Assembly (NCBI GenBank): GCA_030765065.1
Contig: CM060975.1
Coordinates: forward strand, 106,288,094 to 106,352,093
Length of the DNA: 64,000 nt
Source of the DNA: Deroplatys truncata
Taxonomy: Eukaryota > Arthropoda > Insecta > Mantodea > Mantidae
Direction: 5' to 3'
Shown here: piece after piece, positions 12,542 through 60,605 of the stretch
Numbering within the stretch: position 1 is the first letter of the stretch
Layout: the number at the start of each line of letters is the position of its first letter
The notes under the pieces: model-generated
Told to the model about the DNA's origin: nothing
Databases searched by the model: none
Seen by the model: only the letters and a program-made list of their open reading frames with translations
Position numbers and translations under genes: made by a program

Positions 12542-15500
12542 AGAGATTTTTACTTTCTCTCTCGATACCGAGATTTCACCGGAAATATATGTTTTGAGAC
12601 CCCCTGAATCAAAAAAAAAACATTTTTGGTAACACATACGTGTGTGTGTGTGCGTGCGCGTGTGTGTGTGTCATAACTGGTAAACCATAAGAGATAGACA
12701 AAATTTTACTGCACAAAAAATGTAGATCACATTAAAATACACAATTTATGTCATATACATTTTTTGTTGTTGAGTGAACCATTTTCGAGATATTGCTTGT
12801 TATTTTCTTAAATTTTCAATACTTGTTTTCTCAAATGGGAATTCGTTATTCATTTTTTTGTCTTGGATATGCAAAGAGCATTAATCTGTGGCAAAGAGAA
12901 TGGTGCTGCACATAGCAACCAGCTATTAGGAGATATGTCTATGCTTAAAGGCTACTGTATTTCTATATTGCCCTTGCAAATACAAAACAAGGTGAACATG
13001 GTACGTCTTAAGCAATAGTCAAATATTTTTAGAAGTGGTCACTATGTGTAAAATGTAATTCTCTTTGTATGTCAAAAGATCGTTTCTGCAAATGTTTATC
13101 TCGATTAATATGAAATAGATGGAGAATAAAAGTTTGTAAAAATAGTTTGTACAAGAGTAGAGAATGTCATGTGAGTGTAACACATCAGATTTTTTTGCTT
13201 AATGCAGTGATTTCATCATCTGCCATGCCTTCTCAGGGACATTTAAGGAGCACAGACCTTTAAATATGATGTAATTAGAGCAATTTCCAGGTGCTGTAGT
13301 GCTTTAAAACTTTGCATATATGTACTTCAAACCACATAGTATTTTTTGGTACAAAAAAAACAAAACATGAAATGTTGTCATTTTTGGTCACATTTTCACC
13401 CGTTTTCCCTCTTAAAAGTTTGCTCCCAGGTCGCACATGTTAACGCTCATAAGCATTGGACATATTTGAGTGTAATGTAGGCCATACTGTAACAAAACAG
13501 ATGGCATGTATGCAAAGGGAATTCCTAATTGTAGCTCCTTTTCTGTTAAATGTAATTTTTCTTCAATCCCCAATGCTGCTTGTACTATTTCTACATGCAC
13601 AATCACAAGAGCCCACCTGATGTGTATGTTTAGATTTGTTTCGGTTCATTTCAACCAAACATAAAACAAGTGTACACATGACTGTATGGGAGAACAATTT
13701 CATTAATAAAAGACTGGTAGCTGAAATATCCAGAAAAGGGAAGGTAATGCTTTACTGATTGTGCACATCTGCTTCATACCTTACTTACAGAGCAAATAGC
13801 ACTCACATGTTCTCTCCTCGTGGCTCTCCCCAATAGACGTGTTTCTGAGATCGGTAGAGCCAACTTCCCAAGTATCCTGAACCCTCTACCATATTTGCGT
13901 CAACAACTTGTCCTAGACCTGAACTGCTCCTCTCCAATAATGCCATTACTATGCCAAGAGCACAGAGAAGACCACCGCCACCAAAATCAGCAACTAAATT
14001 CACTGGTGCAATAGGCTTTTCATTCTTTCGTCCCAAAAGTGATAACAAACCTGAAAAAGTAATCTCAGCAGTCACAAGTTATTAAATTTTTAGTATAAAT
14101 ACAACCTCTTTTATAGTGGCTTATGAAACAGTGGAAATTTTTGTATTGATATCATTAGATAATTTATTACAGATATTATTCTGTTGAACAGTGAGGTAAT
14201 GCAGCGTATAACTTACTTTCATTAATGACAAGCAATATCTGACATTGGTCACATACATAAAAATCTGATGTGCTATACTTATATGACTTTCTCTACTCTT
14301 GTACAAACTAGTTTCACAAACGCTTATTCTCCATATGCTTCATGTTAATCAGGATATCGAGATGTTAAACTTATTGCTAATTTTCTTGTAGATGCAAGGG
14401 GAATTGGTAGGCTTTAAGCGAAAGTCAAATATTTTAAGAGCTGGTTGCTGTGTGGCGTATTCCATTCTCTTTGCATTACCAGGACAAAAAAAAATTCTGA
14501 TGTGTTACACTCACATGACTTTCTCTACTCTTGTACAAACTACTTTTACAAATGCTTATTCTCCATATGCTTATGTTAATTGAGATGTTAATCCTAATGC
14601 TAATTTTCTTGCAGATGCAAGGGGAATATGGTAGGTTTTAAGCAACAGTCAAATATTTTAAGCGCTCTTTGCATGTCCAGGATATAAAAAAAAATCTGAT
14701 GTGTTACACTCACATGACTTTTTCTACTCTTGTACAAGCTATTTTTACAAACGCTTATTCCCCTTATGCTTCATGTTAATCGACATATCGAGATGTTAAT
14801 CTTATTGCTAATTTTCTTGTAGATGCAAGGGCAATTGGTAGGCTTTAAGCTATAGTCAAATATTTTAAGCGCTGGTTGCTATGTGGAGTATTCCATTCTC
14901 TTTGCATTATCAGGGCAAAAAAAATTGAATAACAAATTTCAGAAGAAGTGTAAGTATTGGAAAATTTATGGGAATAACAAGCAATATCTCAAAAATGGTT
15001 CACTCAACAAAAAAAATGTATATGACATAAATTGTGTATTTTAAGGCGATCTACATTTTTTGTGTAGTAAAATTTTGTCCATCTCTTATGGTTTACCAGT
15101 TATGCAAAAGTCGTTCACAATGAAGAATGCTTTTGGAGACATTCCCAGAAAATCCGAGATATACATTTCATTTGTAATAAAAATATCTTAAACATATGAT
15201 ATTTTAATCAAAATCGTTAGAGCCGTTTTTGAGAAAATTAAAATTTTCGAAAAATGTTCCATGTAAAGGGTAATCTGGGGTGGGGGGATTTTCTTGAAAA
15301 CCTTTGTGTCGCATCTCTGGAAGATACTGAACCTAAATACCAAGTTTGGGGTTTATCCGACTGTTCGTTTCTGAGTTATGCTGTTCTCTCACACACACAC
15401 ATGCATGCACACGTTTCCAAAAATGTTTTTTTTGGATTCAGGGGGCCTCAAAACATGTATTTCTGGTGAAATCTCGGTATCAAATTTTTGGGTGGAATAC

Positions 15501-17910
15501 AATACATTCCCTACTTACTATACATAGTAGAGAAAGTAAAAATACAACATGGTGGAACACCTACTCAGAGGCAGGAGGGAACATAACTTTTTTAATGCTT
15601 GATATTATACTTTCAGTTTGTAGATATAAAGGAAAAAGAACAAAGTATTCTGTTACATAAGACAGACTTGTTTTGAGCTATGTTTAAATACACAAAACTA
15701 TATTTTATATAAATACAGTTTCATAATGAGAACTATTAAAGAAATGTGAAATTTGCTTACAATAATAAATACTGCTAGTATAAGTATTAATTGTGTGATA
15801 GAAATTTATTTTAATTCTCAATGTAAACAATATAATTTGCCTTCCATTTGAAAGTATATGAATAACATTTCTGGCATTTCCATGCTTTGTTGTAGCAGCA
15901 GAAATGAGAGGTTGGATTTGGGTATACAGAAAAACCCACCTACAAAGCTAAACTATTTATAGCTCATGAAGTCCTTTAATGTGAAAAACGCAGGAAATAC
16001 CACAAGTGCCATATCTGCACCACATCACTGATTTCATGCTAGTTCTATTGGTGTAGGAAGAGAGAGAGAGAGAGAGAGAGATTAAATTGAGTTGTTTATT
16101 TATGGACAATGCTCTATAACTGCTGTGGTGCTTAGTGTCCCATTCTATATTTGGCGTGAGAGACTGGTAAGCTTGCTCAGAGGCCTCTTTATCGGGCTTG
16201 AGTTTCTTTTACGTGCCATAAATCTACGGCATGGGACCACCAGCTTTACTTCCCTACCAAAGGAAGCTGTGTTAAGGATTTCTACGCCTGAAAAAATCCA
16301 TCGTCCTCCACAGAGTTTGAACCCGCGACCTTGGGAACTAGAGGTTAGCATGAAAACCAGTACACCACGGAGGATGAAAGAGGTAGAGAGAGACTCAAAA
16401 ATGTAAAACTGAATTGGCTCTAATGATTGTTATTACAATATAAGTTAGAGGTATTGACATGATAAATAAGTATATCTTGAATTTTCTATACATAGTCCTT
16501 GAACCCTTCTTCATTCTCATTGAATTTTATATATGTAGGAAACCATAAGAAGTAGACAGAAACATACTCCTGGAAAGCTTGTTTACTTGTTGAAAATCTG
16601 CAATTTATATCAGCATTTTTATTTAAGTGACTATTTCTGAAATATTTGCTGTTATTTATTTAATTTTTCCCAATGTTTAAACAATAGATGCTGCAATTTT
16701 AAGTGGTTTTTCCTTTGTTTCTCACGAGTATAGTATTCCTGTAATATGATTACTTTAATTACTTTACATTTTTAAGCAGTTGACCACTGTCTGTCTGCAA
16801 AATGATTATTGGCTACGGACGCAGGAATTAACTTTTTATAAACAGGGCAGTACAAGCACACATAAAAAGCAATGTAAATAAAGGTGAAAGGCAGCTTTTG
16901 GTTGCATAGTAACCAGATCCTAAAACATCAGTGCACAAAGATTTGTGTGATTTGGTTAGATTTTAAGTATTTCTATAAAGCATACATTGTGGTGTTGTGA
17001 GAGAATTATTTGTTGTAACTTTAAAAATCTGCACTGTTAGTGTGTCCTCTTGCAAATTTTAGAAGATCAATTGCAAGCATTTTCTAATGTTCAGATAATT
17101 ATTAATTATAACAGCAGCAATGAATTGGACATCTGGGAAAAATATATATCATCAAACACAGGAATCACCTAATGAATTTCGAACTGCTGCCACCCAGTAG
17201 CCTTTGGAGGTTCATCAGCCCAGCACCAGAGAACACCACTAGCCACACACATTCCCCAGACAATAACCGGCAAACTCAGTTGAAAACATGCTGACGATGG
17301 GAGCAAACCATCTCCCAAAACGTGTTCAAGTAAGAACATTTTAGTGATGTAGTGTAACAACCTTCAACTCTCTTTATTTTAAATTCAGTTAATTAGTTTC
17401 TTACCAGAGAGTGCAATATAATTTATGTCATGGCCAGCCATGTTAGAGTAAGCACCATATTGCCCAAAACCAGTTAATCTTGCATAGATCAATTTCTTGT
17501 TGTCCTCCAATAAAACATTTGGACCTAACCCCAATTTTTCCATTACACCTGTAAAAATAAAATCCACAAAGGCATTAGTGAACTACAGTCCTTAGAATTA
17601 AGATATGGCTTAATAATTAATCTTAGATTACTAAACTAAGTCTCAAAAGTGTTTATTATTCCTGAGCAGTACTAGGCAGTTATTATTTTTTTATTTGATA
17701 ATGTTTCAATGAAATACAACACTAACATGTCACAAACACTTATGTTGTCCTTTATTACATGTCCCCACACAGTTTGTGTCTACTGAACATATTCAGTATA
17801 CAATATTTACTTTCTCTACTGTTTACTTATAGTAAGGAAGTGTTATATTCCACCCAAAAATTTGATGCTCGAAGTTTCACTGGAAATATGCAGTTAGAGT
17901 TCCCCCAAAT

Positions 17911-30467: not shown

Positions 30468-31303
30468 TAAAAAAAATCTGGTGTCTTGCACTCACGTGAC
30501 TTTCTCTGCTCTGGTACAAACTATTTTTACAAACGCTTATTCTCCATCTACTTCATGTTAATCGAGATAAACATTTGCAAAAACTGATTATTGCTAATTT
30601 TCTTATAGGTGCAAGGGGAGTATGGTAGACCTTAAGCGATAGTCAAATCTTTTAAGAGCTGGTTGCTATGTGGATTATTCCATTCTCTTTGCATGTCCAA
30701 GAGATAAAAAAAAGAATAACGAATTCCCATTTGAGAAAAAGTATAAGTACTGGAAAATTCAAACAAATAACAAGGAACATCTCGGAAATGGTTCACAAAA
30801 AAAAACTTTGTGACATAAATTGACTGTTTTAACGAGATCTACATTTTTTGTGTAGTAAAATTTTGTCTTTCTTTCACGGTTTACTAGTTCTGCAAAAGTC
30901 ATTCAGAATGAAGAGTACTTTTGAGGATATTCCCATAAAATTCAATATATGCCTTTCTTTTGCTATAAAAATATCTTAAGCATAGAGTCATTTTTGAGAA
31001 AATAAACATTTTCGAAAAATGTTCCATGTAAGTTTGGGGTGGAGGGATTTTCTTGAAAATCTTCGTGTCGCATCCTTGGAAGATACTAAACTCAAATACC
31101 AAGTTTGGTATTTATCTGACTTTTCGTTTTTGAGTTATGCTGTTCACAGACAAACACAGAGACACATACACGGCCACGTTTCCAAAAATGCCTTAATTGG
31201 ATTCAGGGCGCCTCAAAACATGTATTTTCGGAGAAATCCGGTATTGAATTTGTGGGTGGAGTGCAATACTTCCCGTAGTAGCAATACGTAGTAGAGAAAG
31301 TAA
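30468..31303 (-). repeat. H/B/M family copy, inverted
   Basis: Begins with the M end (TCTGGTGTCTTGCACTCACG, ACTTTCTCTGCTCTGG), passes through B (GGTTTACTAGTTCTGCAAAAG, ATACCAAGTTTGGTATTT) and ends at H (GTAGTAGAGAAAGT at about 31300). Confidence 0.87.
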
Positions 31304-32008: not shown

Positions 32009-32940
32009 TTTAATTTCTCTACTACTTAGCTATAGGAAGTAGAGGTATTGCATTCCACCCAAAATTCCGAGATTTCATTGGAAATACACGTTTTGAGGCT
32101 CCCTGATTCTAAAAACGCATTTTACTTTATCACCTAGCTATTGTAAGTAAGAGGAAGTATTGATTCCACACAAAAATTAGATAATGGGATTTCACGGGAA
32201 ATATATCTTTTGGAACCCACCGAAGATCGCTTTCCAAAAAAAGTATTTTTAAAATGTTCTGTGTGTGTCTTTCTGTAAATGGCATAACACAAAAACGAAA
32301 AGTCGAGCAAATATTAAGCTTGGTATTTAAGTTCAATAGCTTTCAAAGATGTAACAGCCAAACTACACTTTACATGGAAATATTTTCGATATTTTAGGTT
32401 TTCACAAAAAGGCTCTAACGATTTGATTAAAATAATATACATTAAAGATATTTACATGGCAAATAAAATGTATATATTGAATTTCCTGGAAATAGTCTGT
32501 GAAGTTCTCTTCATTCGGAAGGATTTTGTATAATGCTGTATAACTTATAAACGTTAAGCGATAGACGAAAACGTACTACACAGAAATGCAGATTTCTTTA
32601 AAACACATAACTGATTTCAAATACCTTGTTTGTGGCATAAGCCATTATTAATGGTTTGAATTGTTCATTACTTGGTCATTCTTTTGAAGTCCTGTCAACA
32701 TTCAGTTGTTTCTCGCGTATGCACACAAAGAGTATGGAATTTTAAGGCCAGTATATAGGTCATAAACATTTGACTATCGCTGTTCTCTTTGTATCCTAAC
32801 GAATGTGTAATGTAGTTATTTCTGCAAAGGTGTATTTGGATTAAAATGAAGTAGATAGAAAAATAAGCTTTAGTAAGAATAATTTGTATATCCATTAATA
32901 AACAATAGAGAGTAGAGAGAGTAATGCGAATGCAATACAT
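32009..32940 (+). repeat. H/B/M family copy, subfamily 2
   Basis: Two H-type starts in a row (TTTCTCTACTACTTAGC at 32014 and a second variant near 32122), then B with AAATATTAAGCTTGGTATTT and an M variant with TCCTGTCAACATTCAG and GACTATCGCTGTTCTC. It ends GAGAGTAATGCGAATGCAAT near 32930. The same M variant appears at 59.2, 61.7 and 62.4 kb. Confidence 0.8.
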
Positions 32941-33405
32941 CAGTTTATTTTAGAAAAAAAGATCCTTATGTGTGTGTGTCCGTCTGTGAACAGCGAAACT
33001 CAAAAATTAAAAGTCGGTTAAATACCAAATTAAGTTCGGCGTCTTTCAAGGATGCGACACGGATATTTGCAAGAAACTTCCACCAACCAAACTCCCTTCA
33101 CATGGAAAACGTGTCTTATTATTTATTTTCTCAAAAATGACTAATGATTTTGATTAAAATACCACATGTTTAAGATACTTGCATGAGAAATAAAATGTAT
33201 AGTATCTTAAATTTTCTGCGAATGGCCTGTGAAGTACTCTTTATACTGAATTAATTTTGTATAACTTCTAAACTGCAAGATATAGAGAACTGCTTACTAT
33301 AATGTAGATCTCATTAAAGTGCACAATTATTTTTCTTTCTAACATTAATCATTTACGAGCGGTTCTTTATTATTGATTTGAATTGTCAAATTCTTTGTAC
33401 TTTTT
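32941..33405 (+). repeat. B-module fragment, headless
   Basis: Starts TTTTAGAAAAAAAGATCC with TGTGTGTGTCCGTCTGTGAACAGCG, then GGATGCGACACGG and AAAATACCACATG. It joins straight into the H/B/M array. Confidence 0.75.
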
Positions 33406-33652
33406 ACTTTCTCTACTACGTATAGTAAGTAGGGGAAGTATTGTATTCCACCCAAAAATTTGATACCGAGATTTCACCGGAAATACATGTTTTGAGACCC
33501 ACTGAATCCAAAAAAAGCATTTTTACTTTCTCTACTACGTATAGTAAGTAGGGGAAGTATTGCATTCCACCCAAAAATTCGATACCGAGATTTCACCGGA
33601 AATACATGTTTTGAGACCTCCTGAATCCAAAAAAAGCATTTTTGGAAACATG

Positions 33653-33720
33653 TCCGTGTGTGTGTCTGTGTGTGTGTGTGTCTGTGTGTGTGTGTGTGTC
33701 TGTGTGTGTGTGTGTCTGTG
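33653..33720. repeat. (TG)n/(TGTGTC)n microsatellite in B
   Basis: Interrupted TG repeat. The equivalent tracts in the next B modules lie at about 34429-34515, 35113-35189 and 35786-35857, each with a different pattern of TC interruptions. Confidence 0.9.
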
Positions 33721-36324
33721 AACAGCATAACTCAAAAACGAACAGTCGGATAAGCACCAAACTTGGTATTTAGGTTCAGTATCTTCCAGAGATGCGACAC
33801 GAAGGTTTTCAAGAAAATCCCCCCACCCCAGACTACCCTTTACATGGAACATTTTTCGAAAATTTTAATTTTCTCAAAAATGGCCCTAACGATTTTGATT
33901 AAAATATCATATGTTTAAGATATTGTCATGACAAATAAAATGTATATCTCGAATTTTCTGGGAATGTCTCCAAAAGTATTCTTCATTGTGAACGACTTTT
34001 GCATAACTGGTAAACCATAAGAGATAGACAAAATTTTACTACACAAAAAATGTAGATTGCGTTAAAATACACAATTTATGTCATATACATTTCTTTTGTT
34101 GAGTGAACCGTTTTCGAGATATTGCTTGTTATTTCCTTAAATTCTCCAATACTTATACTTTTTCTCAAATTCGTTATTCATTTTTTTTATGTCCTGGACA
34201 TGCAAAGAGAATGGAATGCGGCACATAGCAACGAGCGTTAAAATATTTGACTATCGCTTAAAAGCTACCATATTCCCCTTGCATATACAAGAAAATTACC
34301 AATAAGATTGACATCTCGATATCTCGATTAACTTGAAGCATATGGAGAATAGGCGTTCGTAAAATTAGATTGTACAAGAGTAGAGAAAGTCATGTGAGTG
34401 TAACACATCAGATTTTTGGAAACATGTCCGTGTGTGTGTCTAGGTATGTGTGTCTGTGTGTGTGTCTGTCTGTCTGTCTGTGTGTGTGTCTGTCTGTCTG
34501 TGTGGGTGTCTGTCTGTGAACAGCATAACTCAGAAACGAACAGTCGGATAAACACCAAACTTGGTATTTAGGTTCAGTATCTTCCATGGATGCGACACGA
34601 AGGTTTTCAAGAAAATCCCCCCACCCCAGAGTACCCTTTACATGGAAGATTTTTCGAAAATTTTAATTTTCTCAAAAATGGCTCTAACGATTTTGATTAA
34701 AATATCATGTGTTTAAGATATTTTTATGACAAATAAAATGTATATCTTGAATTTCCTGGGAAGTCTCCAAAAGTATTCTTTATTGTGAACGACTTTTGCA
34801 TAACTGGTAAACCATAAGAAATAGACAAAAGTTTACTACACAAAAAATGTAGATCGCGTTAAAATACACAATTTATGTCATATACATTTTTTTTGTTGAG
34901 TGAACAATTTTCGAGATATTACTTGTTATTCCCTTAAAATTTTCAATACTTATTTTCTCAAATGGGAACTCGTTATTCATTTTTACTTTCTCTACTACGT
35001 ATAGTAAGTAGGGGAAGTATTGCATTCGACCCAAAAATTCGATACCGAGATTTCACCGGAAATACATGTTTTGAGACCTGCTGAATCCAAAAAAAGCATT
35101 TTTGGAAACATGTCCGTGTGTGTGTCTGTGTGTGTGTCTGTGTGTGTCTGTGTGTGTGTGTGTGTGTGTCTGTGTGTGTGTGTGTCTGTGAACAGCATAA
35201 CTCAAAAACTAACAGTCGGATAAACACCAAACTTGGTATTTACGTTCAGTATCTTCCAGAGATGCGACACGAAGATTTTCAAGAAAATCCCCCCACCCCA
35301 GACTACCCTTTACATGAAACATTTTTCGAAAATTTTAATTTTCTCAAAAATGGCTCTAACGATTTTGATGAAAATATCATATGTTTAAGATAATGTCATG
35401 AGAAATGAAATGTATATCTCGAAATTTCTGGGAATGTCTCCAAAAGTATTCTTCATTATGAACGACTTTTGCATAACTGGTAAACCATAAGAGATAGACA
35501 AAATTGTACTACACAAAAAATGTAGATCGCGTTAAAATACACAACTTATATCATATACATTTTTTTTGTTGAGTGAACCGTTTTCGAGATATTGCTTGTT
35601 ATTTCCTTACATTATCCAATACTTATACTTTTTCTCAAATTCGTTATTCATTTTTACTTTCTCTACTACGTATAGTAAGTAGGGGAAGTATTGCATTCCA
35701 CCCAAAAATTCGATACCGAGATTTCACCGGAAATACATGTTTTGAGACCTCCTGAATCCAAAAAAAGCATTTTTGGAAACATGTCCGTGTGTGTGTCTGT
35801 GTGTCTGTGTGTGTGTGTGTCTGTGTGTGTGTCTGTGTGTGTGTCTGTGTGTGTGTGAACAGCATAACTCAAAAACGAACAGTCGGATAAACACCAAACT
35901 TGGTATTTAGGTTCAGTATCTTCCAGAGATGCGACACGAAGGTTTTCAAGAAAATCCCCCCACCCCAGACTACCCTTTACATGGAACATTTTTCGAAAAT
36001 TTTAATTTTCTCAAAAATGGCTCTAACGATTTTGTTTAAAATATCATATGTTTAAGATAATGCCATGAGAAATGAAATGTATATCTCGAATTTTCTGGGA
36101 ATGTCTCCAAAAGTATTCTTCATTGTGAACGACTTTTGCATAACTGGTAAACCATAAGAGATAGACAAAATTTTACTACACAAAAAATGTTGATCTCGTT
36201 AAAATACACAACTTATGTTATATACATTTCTTTTGTTGAGTGAACCGTTTTCGAGATATTGTTTGTTATTCCCTTAAATTTTCCAATACTTATACTTTTT
36301 CTCAAATTCGTTATTCATTTTTTT

Positions 36325-37290
36325 ATGTCCTGGACTTGCAAAGAGAATGGAATTCGACACATAGCAACCAGCGTTAAAATATTTGACCATCGCTTAAAAG
36401 CTACCATATTCCCCTTGCATCTACAAGAAAATTAGCAATAAGATTGACATCTCGATATCTCGATTAACATAAAGCATATGGAGAATAGGCGTTTGTAAAA
36501 ATAGATTGTACAAGAGTAGAGAAAGTCATGTGAGTGTAACACATCAGATTTTTTTATGTCCTGAACATGCAAAGAGAATGGAATTCGCCACATAGCAACC
36601 AGCGTTAAAATATTTGACTATCGCTTAAAAGCTACCATATTCCCCTTGCATCTACAAGAAAATTACCAATAAGATTGACATCTCGATATCTCGATTAACA
36701 TGAAGTATAAGGAGAAAGGCGTTTGTAAAATTAGATTGTACAAGAGTAGAGAAAGTTATGCGAGTGTAACACATCAGATTTTTTTATGTCCTGGACATGC
36801 AAAGGGAATGGAATGCGCCACATAGCAACCAGCGATAAAATATTTGACTATCGCTTAAAAGCTACCATATTCCCCTTGCATCTACAAGAAAATTAGCAAT
36901 AAGATTGACATCTCGATATCTCGATTAATATGAAGCATATGGAGAATAGGCGTTTGTAAAAATAGATTGTACAAGAGTAGAGAAAGTCATGTGAGTGTAA
37001 CACATCAGATTTTTTTGTCTTTGATATGCAAAGAATTATAATCTGTGCCAAAGGGAATGCTGCTGCACCTAGCAACCAGCTATTAAGAGATATGTATGTG
37101 CTTAAAGGCTACTGTTTTTCTATATTGCCCTTGTAAATATATATTCCCCTTACATCTACCAGAAAATTAGCAATAAGACAGAGTCTGCAAATGTTTATCT
37201 CGATTAACATGAAGTAGATGGAGAATAAGCGTTTGTTAAAATAATTTGTACAAGAGTAGAGAAAGTCATGTGAGTGAACACATCAGATTT
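36325..37290 (+). repeat. M-module tandem repeat (about 230-bp monomer)
   Basis: Four head-to-tail monomers starting ATGTCCTGGAC or a variant at 36325, 36556, 36786 and 37016. Each ends GTAGAGAAAGTCATGTGAG and CACATCAGATTTTT. The last one is about 270 bp and clearly diverged. Confidence 0.92.
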
Positions 37291-37540
37291 TTTCAGCTGC
37301 TATGTCGCTATTCGTATTTTTTCTCATGGTCATGCAAAGAGAGCGAATGGAATTTCAAAGCCATCATACTGTTTTTAAAAGATTTGACTATCGGTTAAGC
37401 CTACTTTACCCGTTGAAGCTACAACGAAATGTGTAATAAAACGTTTAACATGAAGCAGATAGAAGAATAAGTGTTTTTTGGAATAGTTTATAGGTGAGCG
37501 GATAGAGAAAGTCATGTGAATACAACGGATCTAAAATGCT
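37291..37540 (+). repeat. diverged M-like monomer
   Basis: Keeps the order GGTCATGCAAAGAGAGC, GACTATCGGTTAAGCC, GATAGAGAAAGTCATGTGAA, so it is an older M relative at the right edge of the array. Confidence 0.6.
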
Positions 37541-59936: not shown

Positions 59937-60605
59937 TTACTTTCTCTACTACGTATAGTAAGTAGGGGAAGTATTGTATTCCACCCAAAAATTCGATACC
60001 GAGATTTCACCGGAAATATATGTTTTGAGACCCCCTGAATCCAAAAGAAACATTTTCTCAGAAATGGCTCCAACGATTTTGATTAAAATATCATATATAT
60101 AAATAGGATATTTTCATGACAAATAAAATGTATATCTTGAATTCACTGGGAATGTCTCCTAAAGTATTCTTCATTGTGAACGACTTTTGCATAACTGGTA
60201 AACCATAAGAGATAGACAAAATGTTAGTACACAAAAAATGTAGATCGCGTTAAAATACACAATTTATGTCATGTACATTTTTTTTACTGAGTGAACCATT
60301 TTCGATATATTGCTTGTTATTCCCTTAAATTTTCCAATACTTATACTTTTTCTCAAATGGGAATTCGTTATTCATATTTTTTATGTTCTGGACATGCAAA
60401 GAGAATGGAATACTCTACATAGCAACCAGCGCTTAAAAGATTTGACTATCGCTTAAAGCCTATCAATTCCCCTTGCATCTACAAGAAAATTAGCAATAAG
60501 ATTAACATCTCGATTAACATGAAGCATATGGAGAATAAGCGTTTGTAAAAATAGTTTGTACAGGAGTAGAGAAAGTCATGTGAGTGTAACACATCAGATT
60601 TTTTT
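59937..60605 (+). repeat. H/B/M copy, B partly deleted
   Basis: A complete H (TTACTTTCTCTACTACGTAT), then a direct jump from AAAAGAAACATTT to CTCAGAAATGGCTCC, so the TG-repeat half of B is missing. The rest of B and one M follow, ending AACACATCAGATTTTTTTT. Confidence 0.9.

Follow-up and report, generated by a model that had tools for sequence, protein, structure and literature searches.

Self-insertion of a non-autonomous Helentron probably accounts for a thirteen-module array in the mantis Deroplatys truncata

The window analyzed here is a stretch of 64,000 nucleotides of the Deroplatys truncata genome. At positions 33406-37292 of its forward strand it carries an array of thirteen repeat modules in the order H-H-B-M-B-H-B-H-B-M-M-M-M'. 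The first-pass annotation had proposed this order, together with constant module lengths and junctions at T-tracts, and all three were confirmed when every module was placed with its coordinates. H measures 119 bp, B 542-567 bp, M 230-231 bp and M' 278 bp, the spread of B being due to a microsatellite at its start, and 12 of the 12 inner junctions lie at (C/G)ATTTTT. The junction sequence follows from the module that ends there, being GCATTTTT for H, TTCATTTTT for B and CAGATTTTT for M. The array has no coding capacity, as none of the eight frames of at least 130 amino acids in the window lies within 33406-37292. Scans of the window for Rfam families and for tRNAs gave no matches. Read as a nest, with B bodies typed on nine diagnostic columns, the array and its surroundings comprise the following features.

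14259-15537, minus strand: H-B-M-M-M copy
30472-31301, minus strand: H-B-M copy
32014-32123, plus strand: H of an older nest (parts of this nest are 69-78% identical to the modules)
32124-32250, plus strand: second H of the older nest
32260-32673, plus strand: B of the older nest
32821-32949, plus strand: M' tail of the older nest
32969-33405, plus strand: older B, its T-tract interrupted by the array
33406-33524, plus strand: H1, putative 5' end of the outer H-B-M' element, assigned to B2 and M' by its position
33525-33643, plus strand: H2, 5' end of the element nested at H1|B2
33644-34185, plus strand: B1, M-type body (8 of 9 diagnostic columns)
34187-34417, plus strand: M1, 3' end of the nested element
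34418-34984, plus strand: B2, M'-type body of the outer element (9 of 9 columns)
34985-35103, plus strand: H3, start of the second insert, at the end of B2
35104-35655, plus strand: B3, M-type body (9 of 9 columns)
35656-35774, plus strand: H4, identical to H2
35775-36322, plus strand: B4, M-type body (9 of 9 columns)
36323-36553, plus strand: M2, 3' end
36554-36783, plus strand: M3, 3' end
36784-37014, plus strand: M4, 3' end
37015-37292, plus strand: M', 3' end of the outer element
37293-37531, plus strand: tail of the older B and its M, resuming 3' of the array; the joined flanks align to an intact B-M
59939-60603, plus strand: H-B-M copy with a shortened B

The array interrupts an older member of its own family, whose sequence is 62-71% identical to the modules and continues immediately beyond position 37292. 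More than 20 further copies had been announced for the window; 20 other module stretches are indeed present, though several of them are fragments and two match the B start over a short length. The modules account for 23% of the window and 12.8% of 25 stretches of 10 kb taken at preset genome positions (32,093 of 250,000 bases). Given the latter figure, their abundance in the window is not due to chance, and extrapolation from the 250 kb sampled puts the family at one eighth of the 4.29-Gb genome. The exact 3' end CACATCAGATTTTT occurs 137,333 times genome-wide. Among non-collinear neighbors on the same strand in the window and the preset stretches (314 kb), 18 of 23 have both ends at module boundaries; these boundaries were defined from the array itself, so that the independent part of this count is the 6 of 7 found at other loci, and one of the 18 is merely the array end beside an older M 26 bp further on.

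The first-pass annotation had considered that H, B and M might be three elements targeting each other, in a layout without a named family. Neither idea held. The three modules are the 5' end, the middle and the 3' end of one element, as shown by an inverted repeat between the start of H and the end of M and by an autonomous element with H at its 5' end and the end of M at its 3' end. The layout is that of the HINEs, which are non-autonomous Helentrons, as these are described in the consulted parts of PMC4067079 and PMC7492417. H-B-M is therefore a HINE with H as its 5' terminus, B as its body and M or M' as alternative 3' termini. The longest exact inverted match between its ends is 12 bp, located 0 bp from the 5' terminus and 27 bp from the 3' terminus, within the 11-15 bp expected of the subterminal inverted repeat of HINEs and Helentrons. 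The first 34 bases of H are predicted to fold end to end into a hairpin, matched by 4 of 200 shuffles (z -2.05). At the 3' end, the candidate palindrome ATGTG...CACAT pairs in the predicted fold and recurs in diverged copies, with an energy similar to that of shuffled sequences (z -0.2; 86 of 200 as good).

Insertion sites point in the same direction. Most element starts follow T-runs, and most ends read CAGATTTTT. Three occupied sites (the array, L002 and L021) could be matched to paralogous empty sites, indicating insertion into a T-rich target without target-site duplication. Empty and occupied sites differ by ordinary divergence and by the number of T's, and L021 has a G-run beside the site. 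For the array, joining the flanks gives a sequence that aligns across the break with intact B-M, with 49 matches in the DNA examined, while the inserts of L002 and L021 are located in the A-run that ends an H on the opposite strand. We also considered a canonical Helitron (Helitron1). Such elements have a CTRR-type 3' end motif and insert between A and T. H-B-M displays neither property, its ends reading as above and its targets being T-tracts, and this assignment was rejected.

An autonomous partner is present in the same genome. Young intact Helentrons, encoding Rep, PIF1 helicase and endonuclease domains, begin with H and end with the last 38 bp of M. A search with the profile PF14214 gave at least 152 matches and, among the matches listed, 18 lie in stop-free frames of 2,108-2,543 amino acids. 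The frame of L036 contains PF14214, PIF1, Herpes_teg_N and DUF6570 domains, a Rep motif reading GSPH and, at its C-terminal end, a PF14529 endonuclease that scores barely above the cut-off; a PDB sequence search with the endonuclease part gave a sole match with an E value of 0.38, too weak to be used. The last 38 bp of M are found at L036 8506-8543, 906 bp downstream of the frame (95% match). Identity was 95-100% in each of the 40 scored copies of L036:1-1200. Of 25 other copies reaching the 3' end of the query, 18 start at most 22 bp before the first H, 3 at the T-run preceding the second H and 4 elsewhere. Both ends were seen in one copy (L036, L037), and the 5' end was located by coordinates in others as well. 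The element starts H-B-H-B, with two B units of types M then P that are 9.5-11.5% apart. We asked whether it also targets itself. In 8 of 18 full-length copies, a B end on the same strand lies directly upstream of H, as read by eye. Yet, nesting and a longer (H-B)n start are indistinguishable here, because the upstream B stretches are 85-90% like the B of the query, while the element's own first B is 88.6% like it (last 260 bases). The Helentron that shares the H start and the M end is most likely the mover of H-B-M.

Distances between copies were used to distinguish local duplication from separate sources. The four M copies of the array differ from one another by 3.5-4.8%, and for each of them L008_4728, a copy elsewhere in the genome, is an equally close or closer match (2.6-3.5%). 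These values rule out local tandem duplication of M in the array, in keeping with the earlier remark that simple tandem duplication does not fit, and they are not those of a satellite, in which neighboring units are more alike than units elsewhere. B2 differs from B1, B3 and B4 by 7.3-9.5%. Mean distances are lower within the array than to other loci (H, 2.4 versus 6.0%; B, 6.1 versus 7.2%; M, 4.5 versus 7.1%), but a shared young subfamily would give the same result, as well as the identity of H2 and H4. Local duplication was observed at L008, where the two M's of an M-M pair are 2.7% apart and at least 6.7% from other copies, with their junction at a T-tract. B type does not always go with the expected tail: of 9 B copies followed by M', 1 has the M-type base in every one of the nine columns, and of 7 followed by M, 2 are P-type in seven columns. 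Comparison of columns in H revealed none that separate association with M from association with M'. Ranking the nested parts by their divergence from the majority sequence of each module gave no resolution of age and did not show the outer element to be older.

The order of modules was then examined genome-wide by counting exact pattern matches, each pattern having a fixed number of T's and its own anchors; the reversed-pattern control gave 0 for each. B>H was found 17,452 times, M>M 4,539 times, H>H 2,689 times, M>B 246 times, B>B 70 times and H>M 47 times, the last being about 100-fold rarer than M>M with the same M anchor. Junctions with a double 5' end (H>H plus B>H) thus total 20,141. The odd junctions follow one grammar, in which a new start is an H and the return comes after an M; the fact that B>B is only 3.5-fold rarer than M>B counts against the nesting explanation given below. 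Spacing agrees with nesting at some sites. Among the 29 M>M sites below 31.6 Mb on C1, 7 have a B>H 840-910 bp upstream, the length of one H-B-M (0 in each of three control arrangements), while for 17 the only upstream B>H lies beyond 2 kb or none is present within 3.2 kb. Similarly, an H>H precedes 3 of the 8 M>B sites on C1, at a distance of 850-1,804 bp. A new H is joined at the H|B boundary about 14-fold more often than at a T5 tract inside B (2,689 versus 190). This suggests that the A-run/T-run context of H|B is recognized beyond a plain preference for T, though composite amplification could give an equal excess.

These counts fit self-insertion followed by composite transposition, whereas free shuffling predicts otherwise. 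The importance given to T-tracts from the outset was justified, in that they appear to be the sites of insertion. New copies would enter T-runs without target-site duplication and, since the family's own boundaries (element ends, H|B and B|M) are T-runs, would often land at the boundaries of older copies, producing nests of the forms H-[H-B-M]-B and B-[H-B-M]-M that are joined precisely at ATTTTT. Each H could then be used as a start and each M as a stop, so that a nest may move as a composite that begins at its leftmost H and stops at the first M, or further on if that M is missed. Such movement would spread H-H-B-M, H-B-H-B-M and H-B-M-M and leave M>B rare. A static nest predicts as many H>H as M>B, yet there is an elevenfold difference; composite transposition is therefore needed as an amplifier, or else T-run variants that escaped the patterns. 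M>M also needs missed stops or local duplication: L002 and the window copy at 14259-15537 contain M-M without a matching extra H-B. The tails of the array outnumber its H and its B by one. In the array itself, M-type elements would have entered an H1...B2...M' element at its H|B and B|M' boundaries, the whole lying within a still older B. We regard this whole explanation, from HINE anatomy and a likely Helentron mover to the array as a nest, as highly probable, in view of the anatomy, the ends common with the autonomous element, the empty sites, the nested distances and the junction counts. The rolling-circle chemistry of H-B-M is presumed from the Rep protein.

We considered the possibility that (H-B)n stretches arise as rolling-circle concatemers, a circular intermediate without a 3' stop being copied round, so that a product with many 5' ends and a single 3' end is inserted at once. 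The predominance of B>H among the odd junctions would agree with this, as would the H-B-H-B start of the autonomous element, the 608-669 bp spacing (one H-B unit) of 14 of 99 neighboring gaps among the listed B>H sites on C1, and a 1.68-1.69 kb tandem at C1:24209989-24217430 with H>H and B>H at fixed spacing. Yet, the distance and the differing types of the two B units in the autonomous element lead one to expect two sources rather than one copied circle, the divergence of B2 argues likewise for the array, and nests of the forms B-[H-B-M]-M and H-[H-B-M]-B are not concatemers. Concatemers are thus a possible but rather doubtful contributor, which may act beside nesting.

Template switching or short-homology recombination at T-tracts, as proposed in the first-pass annotation, would shuffle modules freely. 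ATTTTT is present at all array junctions, the local M-M duplication at L008 has its junction at a tract, and the few B>B and H>M indicate that switching may occur rarely. However, this process has no reason to spare these two junctions, which should be formed as well as B>H, H>H and M>M, nor to obey one grammar, and the M copies of the array are not local duplicates; we consider it very improbable. Even less credible is an assembly artefact. Misjoins are conceivable in so abundant a family, but the same junctions occur at thousands of places with null controls, nested distances of one element length recur, the array flanks join into a single older element and the contig is 338.6 Mb long.

If self-insertion followed by composite transposition is the correct reading, a repeat that looked shuffled can be read as a history of composite formation by rolling-circle transposons. 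According to the model of nested insertion, which was proposed from fungal copies, X>H should be frequent, M>M present, M>B scarce and B>B and H>M nearly absent. The counts obtained here, in the tens to thousands, agree with it. A bolder view, which we hold only tentatively, is that of a self-assembling system, in which the inner boundaries would be preferred T-tract targets and the Helentron would remodel itself through insertions into its own copies and subsequent movement of the composite; it is based on the intact lineage starting H-B-H-B with different types and on the 3 of 25 copies that start at the second H. In practical terms, repeat libraries should carry H-B-M and H-B-M' as one element, not three families, and this genome supplies a HINE family together with intact autonomous partners.

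A search of open-licence papers by title and start of abstract found none describing the H-B-M layout. The closest known systems are the HINEs/DINE-1, classified as non-autonomous Helentrons by Thomas, Vadnagara and Pritham (2014, PMC4067079; compared here from sections of that paper). They share with H-B-M palindromic subTIRs, a microsatellite, a T-rich target, the lack of target-site duplication and a variable number of flanking T's. They also have a 3' palindrome, and the candidate for it in H-B-M is no more stable than shuffles. Their partner, like the Helentron described here, is an endonuclease-bearing Rep/Hel element with the same ends, a Rep motif with S (here GSPH) and PF14529. The distance from the 3' subTIR to the terminus is 27 bp in H-B-M versus 38-60 bp in mite families; PMC4067079 states this range for mite families and classifies by the subTIR and the last 60 bp, not by distance. 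Several traits set H-B-M apart from the HINEs/DINE-1 as presented in those sections: its modules meet at T-tracts, its 3' end may be M or M', it shows mass self-insertion, and its autonomous copy opens with H-B twice over. In the Pacific oyster, Cg_HINE (excerpts of PMC7492417) resembles H-B-M by its left module with subTIR, complementary inverted repeat and microsatellite with GTCY-like motifs, by its right module with subTIR and a palindrome, of which H-B-M has a candidate, and by tandem units in between; it repeats central units of 138-181 bp, whereas the H-B-M family repeats H-B, M and whole elements at T-tract junctions. VTD Helentrons (herpes-tegument-like deubiquitinase), compared by domain content from part of PMC9741609, share Herpes_teg_N and a C-terminal endonuclease in the Rep-Hel protein with the Helentron found here. 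Plant tandem truncated Helitrons, attributed by Xiong et al. (2016) to a circle that lost its 3' stop and was copied round, according to an excerpt of PMC12628747, also form arrays with several 5' ends and one 3' end; H-B-M units differ in joining at the B-end T-tract, and one of their arrays may mix subfamilies. Composite FoHelis of Fusarium oxysporum (excerpts of PMC5148889) likewise involve self-insertion, with a nick at the leftmost 5' end and a stop at the first 3' end that yield two 5' ends and one 3' end. They are few fungal copies, Helitron2-like and devoid of endonuclease, whereas the present family offers its thousands of double-5' junctions and counts by which the asymmetry can be tested. 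Helitrons with self-insertion and multiple 5' ends have already been published, and the present genome is a large and legible case of them.

The array that the first-pass annotation had reported was recovered at window positions 33406-37292 with its modules in the order H-H-B-M-B-H-B-H-B-M-M-M-M', and the T-tract junctions claimed for it held as well, (C/G)ATTTTT being present at 12 of its 12 inner junctions. In the 4.29-Gb genome that contains the window (C1:106288094-106352093), modules covered 12.8% of a sample of 25 preset 10-kb stretches spread over 16 contigs. The canonical order in the window and these stretches was H-B-M or H-B-M', with 77 boundary junctions, including 37 H>B, 14 B>M and 10 B>M' (X>Y, module X directly followed by module Y). 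The window also carries, at 2441-2995 on the reverse strand, a coding stretch of an alpha-methylacyl-CoA racemase-like CoA-transferase III (PF02515).

Following a T-run, H starts with ACTTTCTCTACT and an imperfect complement of it, and the two fold together. B starts with a GT microsatellite. At the end of M lie the first 12 bases of H in exact complement, a short palindrome (weak by folding energy) and CAGATTTTT. For three insertions, the flanks once joined matched uninterrupted paralogues; no target-site duplication was found at these three sites, the number of T differing at the site itself. A G-run adjoins the insertion site at locus L021, beyond this T-number difference.

A PF14214 search of the same genome gave at least 152 matches; those listed comprised high scorers, most of them interrupted by stops, and a tight group whose frames are long and open, with 18 stop-free frames of 2,108-2,543 aa among them. 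In one member of the tight group (locus L036), the frame is 2,324 aa long and encodes Herpes_teg_N, DUF6570, Rep and PIF1 domains together with a C-terminal PF14529 endonuclease barely above the Pfam cut-off. Its Rep motif has the GSPH form, which is given for Helentrons in the available part of PMC4067079. The last 38 bp of M were found at 95% 906 bp downstream of the frame, and H-B-H-B-M' (part) lies upstream of it (L037). When L037:1400-3500 was used as query, 25 other copies extended to its 3' end, of which 18 started at 1605-1622, inside the 22 bases ahead of the first base of H (1627), 3 at 2249-2251, in the T-run ahead of the second H (2253), and 4 elsewhere. Copies of L036:1-1200 were 95-100% identical (40 of 40 scored). 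Because of these start points and the M end downstream of the frame, the intact element starts with H, usually in the form of two H-B units, and ends like M, and H-B-M is its non-autonomous relative. The proposal that H, B and M are three separate elements thus fails, since H and the M end are shared with one intact Helentron. In the same search, 8 of 8 break-offs in the M' T-run (query 1587-1594) ran directly into a new H start; T-tracts within modules are therefore also used. Old M and B relics (73-79%, partly inverted) lie inside the autonomous element at L037:3014-3489 and are common to its other copies.

Complete elements inserting into T-tracts would create only X>H and M>Y junctions. 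We counted exact junction patterns genome-wide, the reversed-pattern control giving 0 for each.

Exact junction patterns, genome-wide (lower bounds, because the patterns are exact with a fixed number of T)
B>H: 17,452
M>M: 4,539
H>H: 2,689
M>B: 246
T5 tract inside B, then H: 190
B>B: 70
H>M: 47

Extrapolation from 6 exact cases in 250 kb suggests about 100,000 canonical H>B junctions. Between patterns with different anchors the counts do not compare strictly; fair comparisons can be made of H>M with M>M, of B>B with M>B, and among H>H, B>H and H after T5 inside B. The rarity of B>B and H>M is as insertion of complete elements predicts. Free shuffling by recombination or template switching at T-tracts, the other proposal, fails too, as it would not give so few B>B and H>M against thousands of B>H, M>M and H>H. 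A new H followed H some 14-fold more often than it followed T5 inside B; the context of the H pattern is shorter and brings more background, and spread of composites would likewise push up the H>H count.

Nesting was directly visible in junction spacing. B>H lay one element (840-910 bp) upstream at 7 of 29 M>M sites on C1 below 31.6 Mb, as compared with 0 in each of three control arrangements, and H>H lay 850-1,804 bp upstream at 3 of 8 M>B sites on C1 (the last three sites matched by eye). In the model of Fusarium composite Helitrons, as described in the available part of PMC5148889, a nest is mobilised between its leftmost 5' end and the 3' end met first, so that the additional 5' end is retained and the remainder lost; this model predicts the surplus of X>H relative to M>Y that was counted here. 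Arrays of M>M would require missed stops or duplication in addition. At L008:76-522, which reads H-B-M'-M-M, the two M copies are 2.7% apart and at least 6.7% from every other copy compared; they are a genuine tandem duplication made locally, in contrast to the window array. We also considered whether (H-B)n might arise from copying of circles without a stop rather than from nesting. In the autonomous element, the two B units are 9.5-11.5% distant from each other and belong to different types, so that nesting is favoured there. Elsewhere, H>H and B>H alternate with a period of 1,678-1,694 bp at C1:24209989-24217430, which fits a tandem of an H-H-B-H-B-M composite, and head-to-tail H-B-H-B-M' (part) units recur about every 1.4 kb at C12:112002402-112005645, each new H beginning in the M' T-run.

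The flanks of the window array are two halves of a single older B-M. Its second B copy (B2) carries bases of the M'-associated type in 9 of 9 diagnostic columns, whereas B1, B3 and B4 carry the other type (8/9, 9/9 and 9/9); B2 is 7.3-9.5% distant from these three versus 3.2% from the H-B-M' copy L009. The columns were picked from 16 labelled copies, all outside the array, among which the link between type and tail is good but imperfect (8 of 9 copies followed by M', 5 of 7 followed by M). Read most simply, the array is H1 [H2-B1-M1] B2 [H3-B3-H4-B4-M2-M3-M4] M'. The older stretch directly upstream, H-H-B-M'-B, repeats its first motif, and loci L002 and L021 are independent nests in the opposite direction. 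Divergence gave no age ranking of outer versus inner parts of the array.

Among the first 67 M-end contexts listed, 31 belong to one satellite-like array; the other 36 were read as leading to H (3), B (2), M (4), M' (5) or other sequence (22). Near the contig start, outside the window, C1:20536-122828 holds 31 HINE 3' ends spaced by about 3.41 kb and is a long-period satellite that acquired this end. Pairs of B>H junctions 443 or 451 bp apart were also found in inverted arrangement, with 4-8.5 kb between the two pairs; they may mark an unknown element whose long inverted repeats bear these modules.

Inverted B>H pairs
C1:13833727-13843063
C1:22028063-22033240
C1:26123574-26132933

The subTIR, fold, microsatellite and T-site without target-site duplication of H-B-M are those of HINEs in the available part of PMC4067079, and the same features are described for oyster HINEs in that of PMC7492417; the 3' palindrome, weak by energy, would be a further one. 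The mite families of the former, as far as that part goes, differ in having their 3' subTIR farther from the end. H-B-M is thus a HINE family accompanied by its Helentron and belongs to a known kind, with a self-insertion grammar that is unusually extensive and is quantified here.
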